From positions 1 to 64,000 of the forward strand of contig JAJZPM010000006.1 in the NCBI GenBank assembly GCA_021811105.1: 64,000 bases of DNA. Direction: 5' to 3'. The notes below the pieces were generated by a model that saw only the letters and a list, made by a program, of their open reading frames with translations, ran no database searches and was not told where the DNA came from. Position numbers and translations under genes: made by a program. Of the stretch, positions 29,589 to 36,348 are shown piece by piece; the stretch's first letter is position 1, and each line of letters starts with the position of its first letter. This stretch comes from Nitrospirota bacterium (GTDB lineage Bacteria; Nitrospirota; Thermodesulfovibrionia; Thermodesulfovibrionales; UBA6898).

Positions 29589-31385
29589 TTATGCCTCTTT
29601 TGTCCCTTCCGCATAATTCTTAATGTTTGTCAGCCTGTCCCTCATTTCATCCAGGGCCAGCAGGGATTCCCGGAGTTCCTCGCTCCTCCTTTCGACTTCC
29701 CCTTCGCTTTTGCTTCTTTGCGTCATGCCTTTTTCTACCGCCGTACCGATCCCCTCGATCGTTGCCTCGATCCTCTGGAGCATCTCCCATCTGAAATCAA
29801 GCTTGCTCTTCTGTATCCTCTCCTCGAAATCATTTCCGGACCTTCCCAATTGCAGATCAATGGCCCGGACAAGATAGTCCTGCATTTTTTTAAGTATGAT
29901 TTTGTCGCCGATGAATTTAGGCAACGCAAGTGTCAGGGAGGAAGAGGCAATCTCAAGCCCGCCGGGCTGCTCCTTGAATTTATAATAAAAACGTGACTTA
30001 GCAGACCAGAGGGCATCGGTCTTGATCGCCTCAAAGGGGATTTCAAAAAGATCGGACGAGAATTTCAGCAGCGCGTCGACAGCTTCATCGATCTTCACCA
30101 CGAATCTTCTGCAGATAGCCTCGAATGCCTTTGCCAGCCTGTCGTCCTCCATGGCCCGCCAGATATTGAAGGCCTGTTTAACATGACCTATAACCATCTC
30201 TTCAAGGGCTTCCTTGAGCTCTTTTAATGGAAGTGATTTCGTCCGGGCGAACTCTTCCTCAAGATGGACCTGCTCCCGCGCAAGAAGGTCCTTCCTGAAC
30301 TTTGTGATGTCCTCGTCCAGGATCTCCCTGCTCAGTCTTTTGGTTTCGCCGTCAAGGAGGATGTCGAAGTCCCGTTTTTCAAGGAGCACCTCCTGCTTCC
30401 TGGCCTCGAACGCCTTGATCTTCTGCTGAAGCTCGTCAAGGGGCGTTGTAAGGGATTTAAGCTCGAGTTCAAGCTCAAGCCTTGATTGTGAGATCATTCT
30501 CAGGAGATTGTTGGTAACAGAAATAATAAGGACTGTTCCCTTTTCTTCCATGAGGAAAGTATTCAGGGTCTCGGAGAACCGCGGGAGCATGCTTTTTTGG
30601 ACCATGCCCGCCGCCTTGTTGAGTTCACCGTCCAGGGCCAGCTTCGCCGAGAGCGGGAATATCCGCACGTCCGAGCCTGTCGCCTCTTTGAGGACATTTT
30701 TTGAAAAATCGATGGATTCCCTCAGATCGTTTTCGTTCAGATAGTCGGCCTTGTTCAGCAGGAAAAAAATCCTGTTTGAATATTCTCTCACGTCCTTGAG
30801 GAAGTCGAGCTCGGCCCTGCTCATGGGCTGGTCGACGGACAACAGAAAAAGGACCGCATCTGATTTCGGCAGGTATCGATACGCCACATCCGTGTTGTGC
30901 TGATAGATGGAGCCGACACCGGGTGTGTCTATGAGCCTCACGCCGTCCTTGAGATAATGAGAGGGGTACGTGACCACGACCTCGTTTACATCCTTGACGT
31001 TCTTGGGGTTACCTTTTTCGGTGACGTATTCGGGAAGGCTTTCCGGTCTTATCTCGGCGACATTGCCGTCGTTGAAATAGACCCTGATCCGCAGTGCCTC
31101 GCCATAGGTCATGACAGTAGCGATAGAGGTAAGCGGCACTACGGCAACAGGCAGTATGTCTGCGCCGAGGAGGGCGTTAATAAGGCTTGTTTTCCCCCGC
31201 TTGAACTGGCCGACAACAACGAGATTGAAAGCGTTGGTCTCGATCTTCTCTCTCAACTCCTCGCATGGGCACCCCCTGATACACTCCATGGCGAGCATTT
31301 CATCGATGTATCGTACCAGGTCTCCTTTCAAACGCGAGTATGCCGACATAGCGGAAGACGTGTCCGTAAAGGTTTTTTCCGACAT
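29589..31385 (-). CDS. Bacterial dynamin-like GTPase
   Basis: A 598-residue dynamin-superfamily protein. The start at 31385 is fixed by AAGGAGGAGG. G1 P-loop GQFKRGKTS at 59-67, G2 Thr in PLTSIAT at about 86, G3 DTPG at 153-156, G4 NKAD at 211-214; long helical segments follow (about 300-420 and 490-598) as in the stalk/neck of BDLPs. A hydrophobic patch near 500-515 may be the membrane paddle. Such proteins bend or fuse membranes. A fluoride riboswitch and terminator lie directly upstream, so expression should rise with fluoride. That link is unusual for the family. Confidence 0.9.
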   Translation of the reverse strand: MSEKTFTDTSSAMSAYSRLKGDLVRYIDEMLAMECIRGCPCEELREKIETNAFNLVVVGQFKRGKTSLINALLGADILPVAVVPLTSIATVMTYGEALRIRVYFNDGNVAEIRPESLPEYVTEKGNPKNVKDVNEVVVTYPSHYLKDGVRLIDTPGVGSIYQHNTDVAYRYLPKSDAVLFLLSVDQPMSRAELDFLKDVREYSNRIFFLLNKADYLNENDLRESIDFSKNVLKEATGSDVRIFPLSAKLALDGELNKAAGMVQKSMLPRFSETLNTFLMEEKGTVLIISVTNNLLRMISQSRLELELELKSLTTPLDELQQKIKAFEARKQEVLLEKRDFDILLDGETKRLSREILDEDITKFRKDLLAREQVHLEEEFARTKSLPLKELKEALEEMVIGHVKQAFNIWRAMEDDRLAKAFEAICRRFVVKIDEAVDALLKFSSDLFEIPFEAIKTDALWSAKSRFYYKFKEQPGGLEIASSSLTLALPKFIGDKIILKKMQDYLVRAIDLQLGRSGNDFEERIQKSKLDFRWEMLQRIEATIEGIGTAVEKGMTQRSKSEGEVERRSEELRESLLALDEMRDRLTNIKNYAEGTKEA

Positions 31386-31410
31386 TCCTGTACCTCCTCC
31401 TTCATATGAT

Positions 31411-31448
31411 AAAAAAACTCCTACCCTCAGCCTGCTGAGAGTAGGAGT
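31411..31448 (-). terminator. Intrinsic terminator of the second fluoride riboswitch
   Basis: Arms of 14 bases (ACTCCTACTCTCAG / CTGAGGGTAGGAGT, one wobble pair) with a short loop, then seven T on the minus strand. Its 5' arm overlaps the CTCCTAC that pairs in the aptamer pseudoknot, the arrangement expected for a fluoride ON switch. Confidence 0.93.
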
Positions 31449-31525
31449 CATCGGTCCAACTTCGGACGGTTTATCCCGGTAGAGATTGCGATTCTCTAAC
31501 GGGGTTAAAGGCGAACTCCATCGCC
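31441..31525 (-). ncRNA. Fluoride riboswitch (crcB motif), long variant
   Basis: Minus-strand RNA begins GGCGATGGAGTTCGCC, then TTTAACC, and ends GGACCGATGACTCCTAC, matching the fluoride aptamer: the first stem GGCG/CGCC, the GGAG/CTCC pseudoknot and the conserved GATG. Between AACC and the GTCC/GGAC stem there is an extra hairpin of about 30 bases (CCCG...CGGG with AGAGA/TCTCT). Fluoride should block the overlapping terminator and let the dynamin-like GTPase gene be transcribed. Confidence 0.9.
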
Positions 31526-31544
31526 ATTTATAATCCTTAAAAGT

Positions 31545-31573
31545 AATTTAACAGATCATAAATATCAAGTCAA
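31545..31573 (-). promoter_or_regulatory. Likely sigma-70 promoter of the GTPase gene
   Basis: TTGACT (31573-31568) and TAAATT (31550-31545) separated by 17 bases on the minus strand, about 20 bases before the riboswitch. Confidence 0.55.
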
Positions 31574-31702: not shown

Positions 31703-34387
31703 TCAATCCATGCCGTGTCCAGAATCTTTCTTCTTATTCAGTCTGCGTTTAAAGAGTTTCTCTATTTCGACAGCGATAAATACCGCTGTTGAAAGAATCA
31801 ATACGATCACAAGCTCATTTATCGTAAGCGGTACGGTCTTGAAAACAGGGTTCAGAAAAGGGATGTAGATCGTCGCAAACTGGAGCAGAGACGTTGCTGC
31901 AACGCTTAGCAGCAGAGGTTTGTTCGTGAAGATACCCTGGACAAAGAGCGACTCCTTCTCCGACCGTATTGCCAGTACATGTCCAAGCTGCAGCAGGCAG
32001 AGAGTGGCAAATACCATTGTCTGCCAGTGCGCATCTCCTGTATGGATGGCCCATGCCTGAAGAGAAAGCACCACGCCTGCCATGAGAAGTCCTGCCCACA
32101 CCGCATGATAGCCAAGACCTCCCGAAAAGACACTCTCTCCCGGACGTCGCGGCGGCCTCGTCATCACGTTGCGTTCCTCAGGCTCCATGGAAAGCGCCAG
32201 TGCAGGCAGACCGTCGGTCACAAGGTTTATCCAGAGGATGTGTATGGGCTGCAGCGGAATCGGCAGACCGAGAAAAGGGGCGAGAAAGAGGGTCCATATC
32301 TCGCCTGAATTCGTCGTGAGCAGATATTTGATAAACTTGCGTATATTGTCATAGATCTTCCTCCCCTCCCTGACCGCCTTCACGATCGTGGCAAAATTGT
32401 CATCCAGAAGGATCATGGACGAGGCCTCCTTTGCCACGTCGGTCCCGGTGATGCCCATTGAGACGCCGATATCGGCAGCCTTGAGCGCCGGGGCGTCATT
32501 CACCCCATCTCCGGTCATCGCGACAAAATGTCCCTTGTCCTGAAGGGCGCGCACGATTTTGAGCTTCTGCTCGGGCGCAACCCTCGCATACACCCGGATG
32601 CGCTCCACACGTTCTTCGAACTTCTCCATAGGGAGGGCATCCAATTCCGCACCGGTGATGACCGATTCCGGATCGTCTTCATCAAGGATGCCGACGCGCT
32701 TCGCGATTGTCCGCGCCGTCAGCGGATGGTCTCCGGTAATCATGACCGGAATGATTCCCGCGCTTTTGCAGAGTGCCACAGATTCCCTTGCTTCTTCCCG
32801 CGGCGGGTCCATCATGCCGACAAGCCCCAGAATAGTAAGATCTTGTTCGATCGATTCGTGACCTGTTTCAGCGGGAAGCGTATCCCACCTCCTCATGGCA
32901 ATGCAGAGCACGCGTAATCCTGCCTCGGCCATTTCGTCGTTTGCCCTCAGGATTTCAGCGGCATTCACAGCCTCCGGACCTTCGGAGGTGTAGACTGCCT
33001 GCGCGCGCTTAAGCAGCACATCTGTAGCGCCTTTGGTAAACGAGATATAGCCCTTGCCCCACGGATGTATCGTGGTCATGCTCTTCCTCAGCGAATCGAA
33101 CGGTATCTCGGTTTTTCTTGGGAATGCCTGGTCGAGCTCTTTCTTGATGTAATCGTTTTTTTCCGCGAACTCAAGAAGTGCAATTTCTGTCGGATCGCCG
33201 GCATAATTGCCGTCAGAGTCGCGGCGGGCGTCATTGCAGAGGGTTGCGGCAGTCACAAGAAAGTCAGCGGCAGACATTCTCTGCCCGTCCTGAGTTTTAT
33301 GCACGCTCAATTCCTCCAGCTTGTCATGAGGTATTGTCCGGCCGTCGCAGTATGCGGCCTCGACCGTCATCCGGTTTATGGTCAGCGTTCCGGTTTTGTC
33401 AGTGCAGATATAAGTCACCGACCCCAGTGTTTCGACAGCCGGCAGTCTTCGGACAAGGGCGTTGCGCCTGACCATCTTCCTTGCACCGAGTGCGAGGGAT
33501 ATGGTAACGACTGCAGGCAAGGCCTCGGGGATTGCCGCGACTGCAAGGCTTACCGCGACGAGGAACATCCGGACAGGGTCTTCCTCCCTCAGCAGCCCGG
33601 CGATGAAGACCACAATACAGATGGCGAGCACAGCATATGCCAGTTTTTTTCCAAAAATGGCAAGCCTCTTCTGGAGTGGTGTCTTGCCCTCCTCACCCTG
33701 CTGGAGGAGGGTAGCGATCTTGCCTAGTTCCGTATTCATTCCCGTTGCCGTCACCAGCCCGAGCCCCCTGCCATAGGTAACAAATGTACCCTTGAAGAGC
33801 ATATTCAGACGGTCTCCAAGAGGAAGCGTTTCGTTGCGGATCTCTGTCGTATGTTTTTCAGCCGGAATAGACTCCCCTGTCAATGCAGCCTCCTCAACCC
33901 TGAGACTTGCCGCCTCAAAGACCCGCATGTCAGCCGGCATGATATTCCCTGCCTCAAGAACTACGATATCACCCGGCACAAGTTCTGAGGCAGGGATGGC
34001 AGATTGCTCGCCGCCGCGTATCACCGTGGCATGAGCGGCAGCCATCCTCTTGAGGGCAGCCATAGCCTTTTCAGCCCGATACTCCTGACTGAAACCCAGA
34101 GCAGCGTTCAGCAGCACAATCACAACAATGGCGATGGTGTCGGATGCCTCACCTATAAACCCGGAGATGAGGGCCGCCGCGATAAGGATAAGAATCATGA
34201 AGTCGGCAAACTGATCCAGCAGCATCCTCCATGGTGTTTTTCGCTTTTTTTCGATAAGCTCGTTTGGCCCGTATTGCCGCAGTCGGGCACCGGCTTCTTC
34301 CGGAGTCAGGCCCGCTGAAGACGACTGTATCTCCGACAGCGCCTCCGTAACACTCATCATGTGCCATAACACCTTATTCGTTATCAT
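31703..34387 (-). CDS. P2-type cation-transporting ATPase, probably Mn(2+)/Ca(2+) exporter
   Basis: An 894-residue P-type ATPase of the SERCA/PMR1-like P2A group. The N-terminal cation-ATPase domain (TEALSEIQSSSAGLTPEEAGARL), TGES loop, PEALP in helix 4, phosphorylation motif CTDKTGTLT, TGDGVNDAPALKAAD hinge and LWINLVTDGLPA in helix 6 (Asn and Asp ligands as in SERCA) are all present. The ATG at 34387 follows AGGAAGAGG; ATGs further up lie inside the terminator hairpin. A yybP-ykoY manganese riboswitch upstream argues for Mn(2+) export, as for other P-type ATPases under this RNA. Ca(2+) remains possible. Confidence 0.92.
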   Translation of the reverse strand: MITNKVLWHMMSVTEALSEIQSSSAGLTPEEAGARLRQYGPNELIEKKRKTPWRMLLDQFADFMILILIAAALISGFIGEASDTIAIVVIVLLNAALGFSQEYRAEKAMAALKRMAAAHATVIRGGEQSAIPASELVPGDIVVLEAGNIMPADMRVFEAASLRVEEAALTGESIPAEKHTTEIRNETLPLGDRLNMLFKGTFVTYGRGLGLVTATGMNTELGKIATLLQQGEEGKTPLQKRLAIFGKKLAYAVLAICIVVFIAGLLREEDPVRMFLVAVSLAVAAIPEALPAVVTISLALGARKMVRRNALVRRLPAVETLGSVTYICTDKTGTLTINRMTVEAAYCDGRTIPHDKLEELSVHKTQDGQRMSAADFLVTAATLCNDARRDSDGNYAGDPTEIALLEFAEKNDYIKKELDQAFPRKTEIPFDSLRKSMTTIHPWGKGYISFTKGATDVLLKRAQAVYTSEGPEAVNAAEILRANDEMAEAGLRVLCIAMRRWDTLPAETGHESIEQDLTILGLVGMMDPPREEARESVALCKSAGIIPVMITGDHPLTARTIAKRVGILDEDDPESVITGAELDALPMEKFEERVERIRVYARVAPEQKLKIVRALQDKGHFVAMTGDGVNDAPALKAADIGVSMGITGTDVAKEASSMILLDDNFATIVKAVREGRKIYDNIRKFIKYLLTTNSGEIWTLFLAPFLGLPIPLQPIHILWINLVTDGLPALALSMEPEERNVMTRPPRRPGESVFSGGLGYHAVWAGLLMAGVVLSLQAWAIHTGDAHWQTMVFATLCLLQLGHVLAIRSEKESLFVQGIFTNKPLLLSVAATSLLQFATIYIPFLNPVFKTVPLTINELVIVLILSTAVFIAVEIEKLFKRRLNKKKDSGHGMD

Positions 34388-34716: not shown

Positions 34717-35076
34717 CTATCCCGGAGGCCAGGAAAATCTGCGTCCCGAAAGAAGGTGGATGTGGATATGTGACACAGTCTGTCCGCCGCCTGTGCCATT
34801 GTTTATCACTGTCCGATAACCCTTCTTATCCAGTCCTTTGTCGCGCGCGATCTTTATCGCCGTCCAAAACCATCGTTCGATGAGTTCCTTGTCGTCGTCT
34901 GCGATAAACCGGATTTCAGAAATGTGCTTTTTCGGCATAACCAGAATGTGAACAGGTGCCTGCGGGCTTACATCTTCAACGGCGATGAACAAATCGTCTT
35001 CAAAAACAATTCTCGCAGGCGCCTTGCCCCGGACAATTTCACAAAAGACGCATCCTTCTTTGCGCACTCCATTCAT
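34717..35076 (-). CDS. HIT-family nucleotide-binding protein
   Basis: A 119-residue histidine-triad protein of the HinT branch, which hydrolyses nucleoside phosphoramidates. CVFCEIVRGKAPARIVFEDD is the metal-site N-terminus and VSHIHIHLLSGR the catalytic triad. It starts 24 bases after the DUF190 gene and is the third gene after the crcB fluoride riboswitch. Complete, normal length. Confidence 0.93.
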   Translation of the reverse strand: MNGVRKEGCVFCEIVRGKAPARIVFEDDLFIAVEDVSPQAPVHILVMPKKHISEIRFIADDDKELIERWFWTAIKIARDKGLDKKGYRTVINNGTGGGQTVSHIHIHLLSGRRFSWPPG

Positions 35077-35100: not shown

Positions 35101-35817
35101 CTATACGATCTCTGGGCCGACATCCCTGTGTGTGTACTTGATCACATTTACATCCGACAATACTACTATCCCCTCCTGGACCATATCGTCCAGGATAGGA
35201 ATCACTTTACTTATATTCTCCTCCGTGTCCATCACCGTTATCAGTATGGGCAATTCTCCATGAGTAGCAAGCGTTTTCTTCTTATGGTATCTCTTGTGCG
35301 GACCGTACCCTGCCATCGCCTTATACACCGTCGCCCCGGCGATATCGGTCATGATAAGCCTCTTCACAATCGCCTCGTAGAGCGGCTCTCCTTCCCACTC
35401 GTCGTCTTCGCTTATGATGATCCTGAGCATCTTCGCCTTGCCTTCGAGCTTCATATGTTCCTCCCTCTTTTCTTCTTTTTCAGGGACGTTCCTGCAACAC
35501 TTGACGACGTTGGTGTCCGTCACGTCCACGAGTCCCTTCTCCACGACATGATAAACGTCGGGCAGGACCTTATTGATCATCTCCTCCGAATCGACGACTT
35601 CGATCTTGACAGGCATGCTTGTCGACAGTTCAAGCATCTTTGAAGTATGAAATACCCCGTCGCTTCCGTATCCAGCTATGCCTCTGAAGACGCTCACCCC
35701 GATGATCTTCTTCTTGAAGAAGATATCGAGAAGCACCTCGTAAACCGGCTTACCGTGGAATTTGTCCGTCTCATCCACGTACACGGTGAGTTTCTTCGCA
35801 GGTCCTCTGGTAACCAT
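35101..35817 (-). CDS. Tandem DUF190 protein
   Basis: A 238-residue protein made of two DUF190 domains: residues 5-110 (KLTVYVDETDKFHGKPVYEVLLD ... GIAGYGSDGVFHTSK) and 120-230 (MLRIIISEDDEWEGEPLYEAIVKR ... AMAGYGPHKRYHKKK), joined by a charged linker. DUF190 has a PII-like ferredoxin fold and is repeatedly found with crcB. It lies 9 bases after crcB under the fluoride riboswitch and may be a sensor or regulator of the exporter. Molecular role unknown. Confidence 0.9.
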   Translation of the reverse strand: MVTRGPAKKLTVYVDETDKFHGKPVYEVLLDIFFKKKIIGVSVFRGIAGYGSDGVFHTSKMLELSTSMPVKIEVVDSEEMINKVLPDVYHVVEKGLVDVTDTNVVKCCRNVPEKEEKREEHMKLEGKAKMLRIIISEDDEWEGEPLYEAIVKRLIMTDIAGATVYKAMAGYGPHKRYHKKKTLATHGELPILITVMDTEENISKVIPILDDMVQEGIVVLSDVNVIKYTHRDVGPEIV

Positions 35818-35826
35818 TAATCCCTC

Positions 35827-36201
35827 CTATAACATCTTAGCGATGACTTCACCCGTTTTTAAGGCAACAAACCCTAAAAACACGCTCAAGACAACATTGA
35901 GACCAGCTAACAACAACTCATTATCTTTAAACAGCTTACCCGTCTCGTACTCAAAAGTCGAGAAAGTCGTATAGGCCCCCAAAAGGCCGACAACCAGCAA
36001 TAGCCTCCATAGAGGATTAGCCATAAACCTCTCTGTGAGCAGTGTCATGAGAAGGCCTATCACAAAGCTGCCGCTCACATTAATCACAAAGGTCCCCAGT
36101 GGGAAAGTCCGGCCCCACTTCTGACCTATCCAGGTCGCCACGGCATACCTCGCGATTGCGCCGATAAAACCTCCGGCCCCTATTATCAGATAGTCAACCA
36201 C
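35827..36201 (-). CDS. crcB: Fluoride exporter CrcB/Fluc
   Basis: A 124-residue inner-membrane fluoride channel of dual topology. The start is GTG at 36201, 10 bases after AAGGAGG. Four helices with the family signatures GGFIGAIARY, NVSGSFVIGLL (the polar Asn and Ser of the pore) and GAYTTFSTFEYE with the Phe box. It works as an antiparallel dimer; only one copy is present, so a homodimer is expected. It is the first gene under a fluoride riboswitch. Confidence 0.95.
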   Translation of the reverse strand: MVDYLIIGAGGFIGAIARYAVATWIGQKWGRTFPLGTFVINVSGSFVIGLLMTLLTERFMANPLWRLLLVVGLLGAYTTFSTFEYETGKLFKDNELLLAGLNVVLSVFLGFVALKTGEVIAKML

Positions 36202-36226
36202 CTTGATATGCCTCCTTTTCGGGCAT

Positions 36227-36265
36227 AAAAAAACTCCTGCCCTCATATAGTTTGAGAGTAGGAGT
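36227..36265 (-). terminator. Intrinsic terminator of the crcB fluoride riboswitch
   Basis: Arms ACTCCTACTCTCA and TGAGGGCAGGAGT (two imperfect pairs) with seven T on the minus strand; the first arm is shared with the aptamer. Confidence 0.9.
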
Positions 36266-36311
36266 CATCAGCTCCGATGAACAAGAGCGGTTAGCGGCGA
36301 ACTCCATCGCC
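36258..36311 (-). ncRNA. Fluoride riboswitch (crcB motif)
   Basis: Minus-strand RNA: GGCGATGGAGTTCGCC, then GCTAACC, a GCTC...GAGC stem and TGATGACTCCTAC. All conserved parts of the fluoride aptamer are present, including the GGAG/CTCC pseudoknot. It controls crcB-DUF190-HIT by antitermination. Confidence 0.96.
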
Positions 36312-36318
36312 TTTTGTC

Positions 36319-36348
36319 ATTTTATTACATATTTTATGCCGATTTCAA
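36319..36348 (-). promoter_or_regulatory. Possible promoter of the crcB operon
   Basis: TTGAAA (36348-36343) and TAAAAT (36324-36319) on the minus strand with an 18-base spacer, just before the riboswitch. Confidence 0.45.

Follow-up and report, generated by a model that had tools for sequence, protein, structure and literature searches.

What might a dynamin-like GTPase do for a bacterium exposed to fluoride, and is its gene really under the control of this ion? The question is raised by a locus of a Nitrospirota bacterium, which we analysed within a window of 64,000 nt (the whole stretch of DNA under study). The features needed for the argument are as follows, all on the minus strand.

29589-31385 (-): dynamin-like GTPase of 598 aa, assigned to the BDLP/IniA class by its Dynamin_N domain and by profile and fold matches
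31410-31449 (-): intrinsic terminator; hairpin 31449-31416 with 15 pairs and a loop of 4, then a T run
31435-31534 (-): fluoride riboswitch aptamer (RF01734); Rfam 48.3 bits (gathering score 34; E 2.6e-10), with all of model positions 1-64 covered
31545-31573 (-): promoter-like site TTGACT-17-TAAATT with an extended -10 TG, 9/12 matches
31703-34387 (-): P-type ATPase for cations (calcium type), located between both fluoride units; at most a candidate fluoride-regulon gene
34717-35076 (-): HIT-family protein that may belong to the crcB operon
35101-35817 (-): DUF190 protein
35827-36246 (-): CrcB fluoride channel
36252-36320 (-): second fluoride riboswitch, before crcB; Rfam 65.6 bits

A predicted fluoride-responsive leader precedes the dynamin gene

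An earlier note, made from the sequence of this DNA, had described a fluoride aptamer overlapping an intrinsic terminator 26 bases before the dynamin gene. The aptamer was recovered by Rfam over the full length of the model, with a 35-nt insert bearing an accessory hairpin placed between P1 and P3 by both the match and the fold. Between P1 and the UUAACC linker, some fluoride aptamers have an additional hairpin of about 25-35 nt, and their matches then extend over about 92-104 nt; besides the window aptamer these are L087:5847-5946, L098:5817-5915, L046:1501-1594 and L047:1501-1592. When 31 aptamers including that of the window were aligned, 95.8% of cells were paired (100% in the pseudoknot), compensatory changes were present, and both-side changes occurred in 40 cells vs 14.9 in shuffles. 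The structure outscored both kinds of control, shuffled and slid, in every measure except further pair types, for which 47 of 500 shuffles were as high.

The overlap with the terminator also held. The 15-pair hairpin draws on the 3' strand of the aptamer, and its ascending arm GACTCCTACTCTCAG includes ACUCC, which forms the 3' side of the pseudoknot. Because these bases are common to the pseudoknot and the ascending arm, aptamer and terminator are mutually exclusive. The terminator is present in the ligand-free minimum-energy fold of the whole leader (-55.2 kcal/mol, z = -4.2, with 0 of 200 shuffles as low). Upstream, 11 nt separate the end of the promoter-like site from the aptamer. Since a scan of the region found promoter-like sites in no excess over shuffles, position is the main argument for this site. 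Family-wide counts of promoters (40/53) and terminators (46/53) were obtained at loose thresholds with no shuffled control, the latter including some terminators located clear of the aptamer, and our argument is built on the window's own elements alone. We place the start of the gene at ATG 31385, 49 nt past the Rfam match, with GGAGGAGG just 5' of it; this start lies 25-26 nt past the T run, which reproduces the spacing given earlier. A longer start, giving an ORF of 620 aa, was considered unlikely, because its ATG falls within the aptamer and because ATG 31385 has a good ribosome site in front of it.

We infer that fluoride turns the gene on, both from how riboswitches of this class usually work and from the sequence overlap found here. 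In fluoride-free cells the leader would fold into the terminator, and transcription would stop. With fluoride bound, the pseudoknot (GGAGU with ACUCC) would hold the ascending arm of the terminator, and RNA polymerase would read into the dynamin gene. Elsewhere in the window a crcB-DUF190-HIT unit with its own switch spans 36320-34717. The search of the 3.94-Mb genome gave two fluoride riboswitches, both in the window, so that the dynamin is one of the two fluoride-switched units found.

The pairing of switch and dynamin recurs in related and distant bacteria

Sixty-one genomes, the window's own included, were screened with the protein and, in a separate search, for fluoride riboswitches. Dynamin matches were obtained in 18 of the 61, with a clear gap separating the family (at least 50% identity) from unrelated dynamins (about 25%), and for many family members the coordinates showed a riboswitch a short distance upstream. 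Ten members were then aligned, and with this alignment relatives were retrieved on protein similarity alone, the best 80 of 534 being kept, and a covariance model built from 31 aptamers (R1), some of which stand before dynamins, was run over all 80 loci. Dynamins downstream of fluoride riboswitches, which the earlier note had proposed to seek, proved to recur: in 52 of the best 80 of 534, a switch on the gene's strand precedes the protein match by no more than 400 nt. Five more of these 80 had a switch within 3 kb and one (L128) at 3.3 kb. The other 22 had no upstream switch, several of them with little upstream sequence (short upstream sequence: L081 13 nt, L070 315, L082 599, L097 888, L121 893 and L085 901). 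Sorted by identity to the window protein, the best 80 of 534 had an adjacent switch in 24/29 loci at 60% or above, 7/19 at 48-59%, 0/7 at 42-47% and 21/25 below 42%. The pairing is seen down to a protein identity of about 37-40%, in records of the Nitrospirota and of the Desulfobacterota type.

Since the training set of R1 held aptamers that precede dynamins, Rfam's own model was used as a check. At its gathering score, RF01734 was found directly upstream in 25 of 28 mostly divergent loci and farther upstream in two (L086, L128), with none in L063. Eleven switch-less loci re-scanned with the Rfam model had no switch before the dynamin, and two of them (L115, L111) have one elsewhere in the locus. 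As a control, seven unrelated dynamins (about 25% identity) were taken from relatives: none of the seven had an R1 match within its 1.5-kb flanks. An adjacent match was found in 9 of the 14 family loci of the same control, and of the five without one, L011 and L014 hold part of the gene only. Chance pairing was rejected as an explanation, with about 1.6e-4 expected per locus (at most 400 nt, 2 switches per 2.5 Mb) vs the 52/80 observed. These comparisons strongly support the predicted fluoride control of the dynamin.

A sample of 295 genomes from the phylum gave a matching picture. Fluoride riboswitches were present in 31 of the 33 genomes with the family dynamin vs 95 of the 262 without it (Fisher p = 7e-11); the two dynamin genomes lacking a switch are G298, with fragments only, and G127, which is 74% complete. 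For 30 loci of this sample, which includes the window itself (L171) and several genomes that also belong to the 61-genome set, the switch was adjacent in 20, lay about 1.7 kb upstream by coordinates in five (G038, G049, G156, G096, G303) and was not near in the remaining five (L186, L187, L188, L190, L192). Because 95 of the 126 fluoride-riboswitch genomes of the phylum sample lack the family dynamin, this is an accessory gene, not a core one. Pieces of the dynamin gene only were seen in G298:C13 and G265:C152, suggesting recent loss or assembly breaks. Six fluoride riboswitches were counted in one genome (G029; contigs C42, C37, C48, C17), where each of the two dynamin copies immediately follows a switch of its own.

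A quick maximum-likelihood tree was calculated from 75 family rows and 3 outgroup rows, leaving off six of the 80 loci as incomplete (L064, L074, L098, L104, L110, L130); it has several long branches. Four changes of state suffice to explain the presence or absence of the switch among scorable rows, and each of the two large deep clades (15 and 58 rows) contains rows with a switch. Within a Syntrophobacteraceae-rich clade of 14 rows, 10 have more than 2 kb of upstream sequence and no switch, and four are too short to score. The switch looks to have been lost in this clade, the tree being compatible with gain or loss, and since the clade has no upstream riboswitch, the protein can serve without one. 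Neighbours there include a lytic transglycosylase, a pyrophosphatase and GlnD: membrane pyrophosphatase or GlnD adjoins the dynamin in L081, L082, L088, L092, L093, L096, L097, L099, L101 and L102, and a divergent lytic transglycosylase gene often lies upstream, hinting at other control. The nearest named rows to the window protein are Nitrospirae and Thermodesulfovibrionales records. MAG titles may reflect mis-binning, as for L071, titled 'Deferribacteres' and placed about 0.05 from a Thermodesulfovibrio row.

Recurrent neighbours include known fluoride genes

Neighbours were counted over the best 80 of 534 loci, many of which end at contig ends, so that the counts are minima. Over these 80, universal stress proteins (USP) were found in at least 18 loci, CPA2 Na+/H+ antiporters in at least 16, MFS transporters in at least 16, DUF190 and CrcB in at least 6 each, and enolase and a second antiporter family in at least 5 each; at least 5 loci, of the switch-less clade, have a membrane pyrophosphatase. 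Genes for DUF190 and for universal stress proteins are fluoride-riboswitch genes. The dynamin units share with the fluoride (crcB) riboswitch regulon the aptamer family, the terminator expression platform and the neighbours CrcB, DUF190, Na+/H+ antiporter, USP, enolase and pyrophosphatase. A review names exporters, antiporters, pyrophosphatase and enolase as fluoride-riboswitch gene classes (PMC11139923).

Back-to-back fluoride riboswitches on opposite strands, one of which drives the dynamin, were found in L108, L114 and L117 (at about 5.4-6.0 kb) and in L116 (about 1.5-1.8 kb); the other switch of the pair faces the CrcB side in L114 and the antiporter side in L117. An MFS transporter gene often comes right after the dynamin (e.g. 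L079, L107, L133) and has its own fluoride riboswitch in L128 (about 1.2-2.6 kb); this recurrent family may be an undescribed fluoride-response transporter. Other genes seen downstream of the dynamin encode a small HAD-type protein (L077:10543-11025 and 7 other loci), a zinc-ribbon HEAT protein (L062:3632-4018 and 6 others) and an AAA ATPase family (L059:6480-7283 and 6 others).

The protein resembles BDLP and IniA

Dynamin_N (PF00350) matches the window protein at 103.4 bits against a Pfam cut-off of 27 (E 1.7e-29). The G1-G4 motifs listed in the earlier note are all intact (G1 GQFKRGKT at 59-66, switch T86/T90, G3 DTPG at 153-156 and G4 NKAD at 211-214) and near-invariant: over 47 relatives, each of the 17 motif positions is invariant save N211 (98%), Q60 (94%) and T66 (70%). 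The invariant K62-R63 pair was dismissed as a fluoride-specific adaptation of the P-loop, the same K-R-G-K being common to BDLP and the window protein. An AlphaFold2 model (pLDDT 83, pTM 0.76) predicts a GTPase head with two long helical bundles, a neck and a trunk. The tip of the trunk (447-489) is the least well modelled part, with a block of pLDDT 32-53 over 461-490, and the aligned members have a partly conserved FYYKF...LP pattern in this low-confidence region. Hydrophobicity gave no membrane-spanning segment at the tip, and the most hydrophobic stretches lie within the GTPase domain.

A protein profile built from 47 members was used to search the PDB. The top match was BDLP of Nostoc punctiforme (2j68, 8e-46). 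A second BDLP entry is matched nearly over the full length by Foldseek (2j69, E 5.9e-22, TM 0.66/0.60), and the structural Z to BDLP is 23.4 over 580 residues (rmsd 5.5), although identity is only about 17-18% and the paddle region is poorly modelled in the window protein. The highest structural Z, 26.4 over 523 residues, was obtained for IniA of Mycobacterium smegmatis (6j72; profile match 1e-30, Foldseek 2.2e-21, nearly full length), again at low identity (about 18-20%). The Campylobacter DLP pair (5owv), SynDLP (7zw6) and mitofusins match as members of the dynamin superfamily fold, but their full-length similarity is weaker, and unlike the Campylobacter pair, the window dynamin has no paired DLP gene adjoining it among the window ORFs. 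On profile and modelled fold, the window protein is a BDLP/IniA-class dynamin.

IniA is induced by anti-tuberculosis drugs; we know of no riboswitch for IniA and of no link between BDLP and fluoride. Published studies describe IniA as a stress-induced dynamin with a neck, a trunk and a lipid-interacting loop that performs GTP-dependent membrane fission (PMC6715688), report that DynA supports membrane integrity (PMC8844932), and place lipid contact at the trunk tip in BDLP (PMC2862293) and IniA (PMC6715688). By its modelled fold, the window protein may likewise bind lipid through its tip and remodel membranes.

Role of the dynamin in fluoride stress

We consider it probable that the dynamin is a fluoride-induced effector that remodels or stabilises the membrane, as a dedicated part of the fluoride regulon and not as a back-up of a housekeeping dynamin. 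Its regulation is well supported by the sequence comparisons, and its membrane role would follow from the fold. The protein would be a soluble, GTP-dependent dynamin whose trunk tip binds the cytoplasmic membrane and remodels or stabilises it. The regulon context suggests that the benefit to the cell would be a membrane that stays intact as HF comes in, lowers the internal pH and depletes the proton-motive force, and that the dynamin would act alongside export by CrcB and Na+/H+ antiport. Two roles had been offered in the earlier note. The first, a membrane-maintenance protein raised under fluoride, fits the BDLP/IniA fold and the published stress roles of IniA and DynA and was retained; the second, compensation for poisoning, was disfavoured.

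On the compensation reading, fluoride with Al, Be or Mg would trap dynamin in a transition-state-like complex, and the cell would make more of it, as is done with enolase or pyrophosphatase. Enolase does follow the dynamin in L066 and L076, and riboswitch-linked enolase is described as a response to inhibition in passages of PMC11139923. However, among the matches listed, none of ten family genomes compared (G000, G007, G020, G029, G037, G038, G043, G048, G049, G054; each with a full-domain member) has a full-domain dynamin outside the family, which leaves no separate constitutive dynamin to poison; the two full-domain dynamins each of G007 and G029 are both family members. For this reason we regard compensation as unlikely, and a terminator-controlled gene should in any case be mostly off without fluoride. 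In the window genome the window protein is the sole full-domain dynamin among the matches listed. Of three Dynamin_N matches in G000, two are limited to model positions 1-39 and 1-33, in frames of 413 and 443 aa, and resemble P-loops belonging to other GTPases, and a back-up for another dynamin was rejected as the main reading on these listed matches.

The dynamin might instead organise or assemble the antiporter, CrcB or USP with which it shares operons, without a general action on the membrane. Several loci (L056, L057, L067, L105) have the gene order switch-antiporter-USP-dynamin, and CrcB or DUF190 adjoins the dynamin in others; yet the majority of members are found singly after a switch of their own, no partner gene being constant, and such a scaffolding function seems improbable to us. 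Least credible, and in our judgement very improbable, is that another stress or phage defence of the Leo type is the main job and the fluoride switch incidental. PADLOC profiles do match (LeoA 5.7e-20, LeoBC 4.3e-18) and one clade of the family has no switch, but these scores look like general dynamin similarity, the recurrent neighbours are fluoride genes, and the switch is kept across deep branches with few changes of state.

Implications

The fluoride switch and the dynamin are each of a known kind, and it is their lasting combination that appears new. By title and start of abstract, the literature surveyed contained no link of dynamins to fluoride riboswitches or bacterial crcB, the gene list of Baker et al. 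2012 being outside the survey; the word dynamin has 0 occurrences in the main texts of PMC2864571, PMC7266159 and PMC11139923. A bolder reading, to which we give about even chances, is that these proteins form a separate dynamin subfamily of patchy distribution that serves survival in fluoride, a membrane-remodelling GTPase being switched on by an RNA that senses the ion, and that fluoride is toxic in part through direct damage to, or remodelling of, the membrane, an effect so far unrecognised. If this were true, fluoride damage to the membrane would be handled by a dynamin, beyond export alone.

The pairing of switch and dynamin in related and distant bacteria suggests that reshaping or protection of the membrane is part of fluoride survival. 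It is difficult to attribute physiological functions to bacterial dynamins, and here a conserved ion-sensing switch would name the condition in which a subfamily is needed. The fluoride response, so far mainly export, pH control and enzyme replacement, would gain a membrane-remodelling arm, and both ideas become testable in a fluoride-sensitive laboratory strain.
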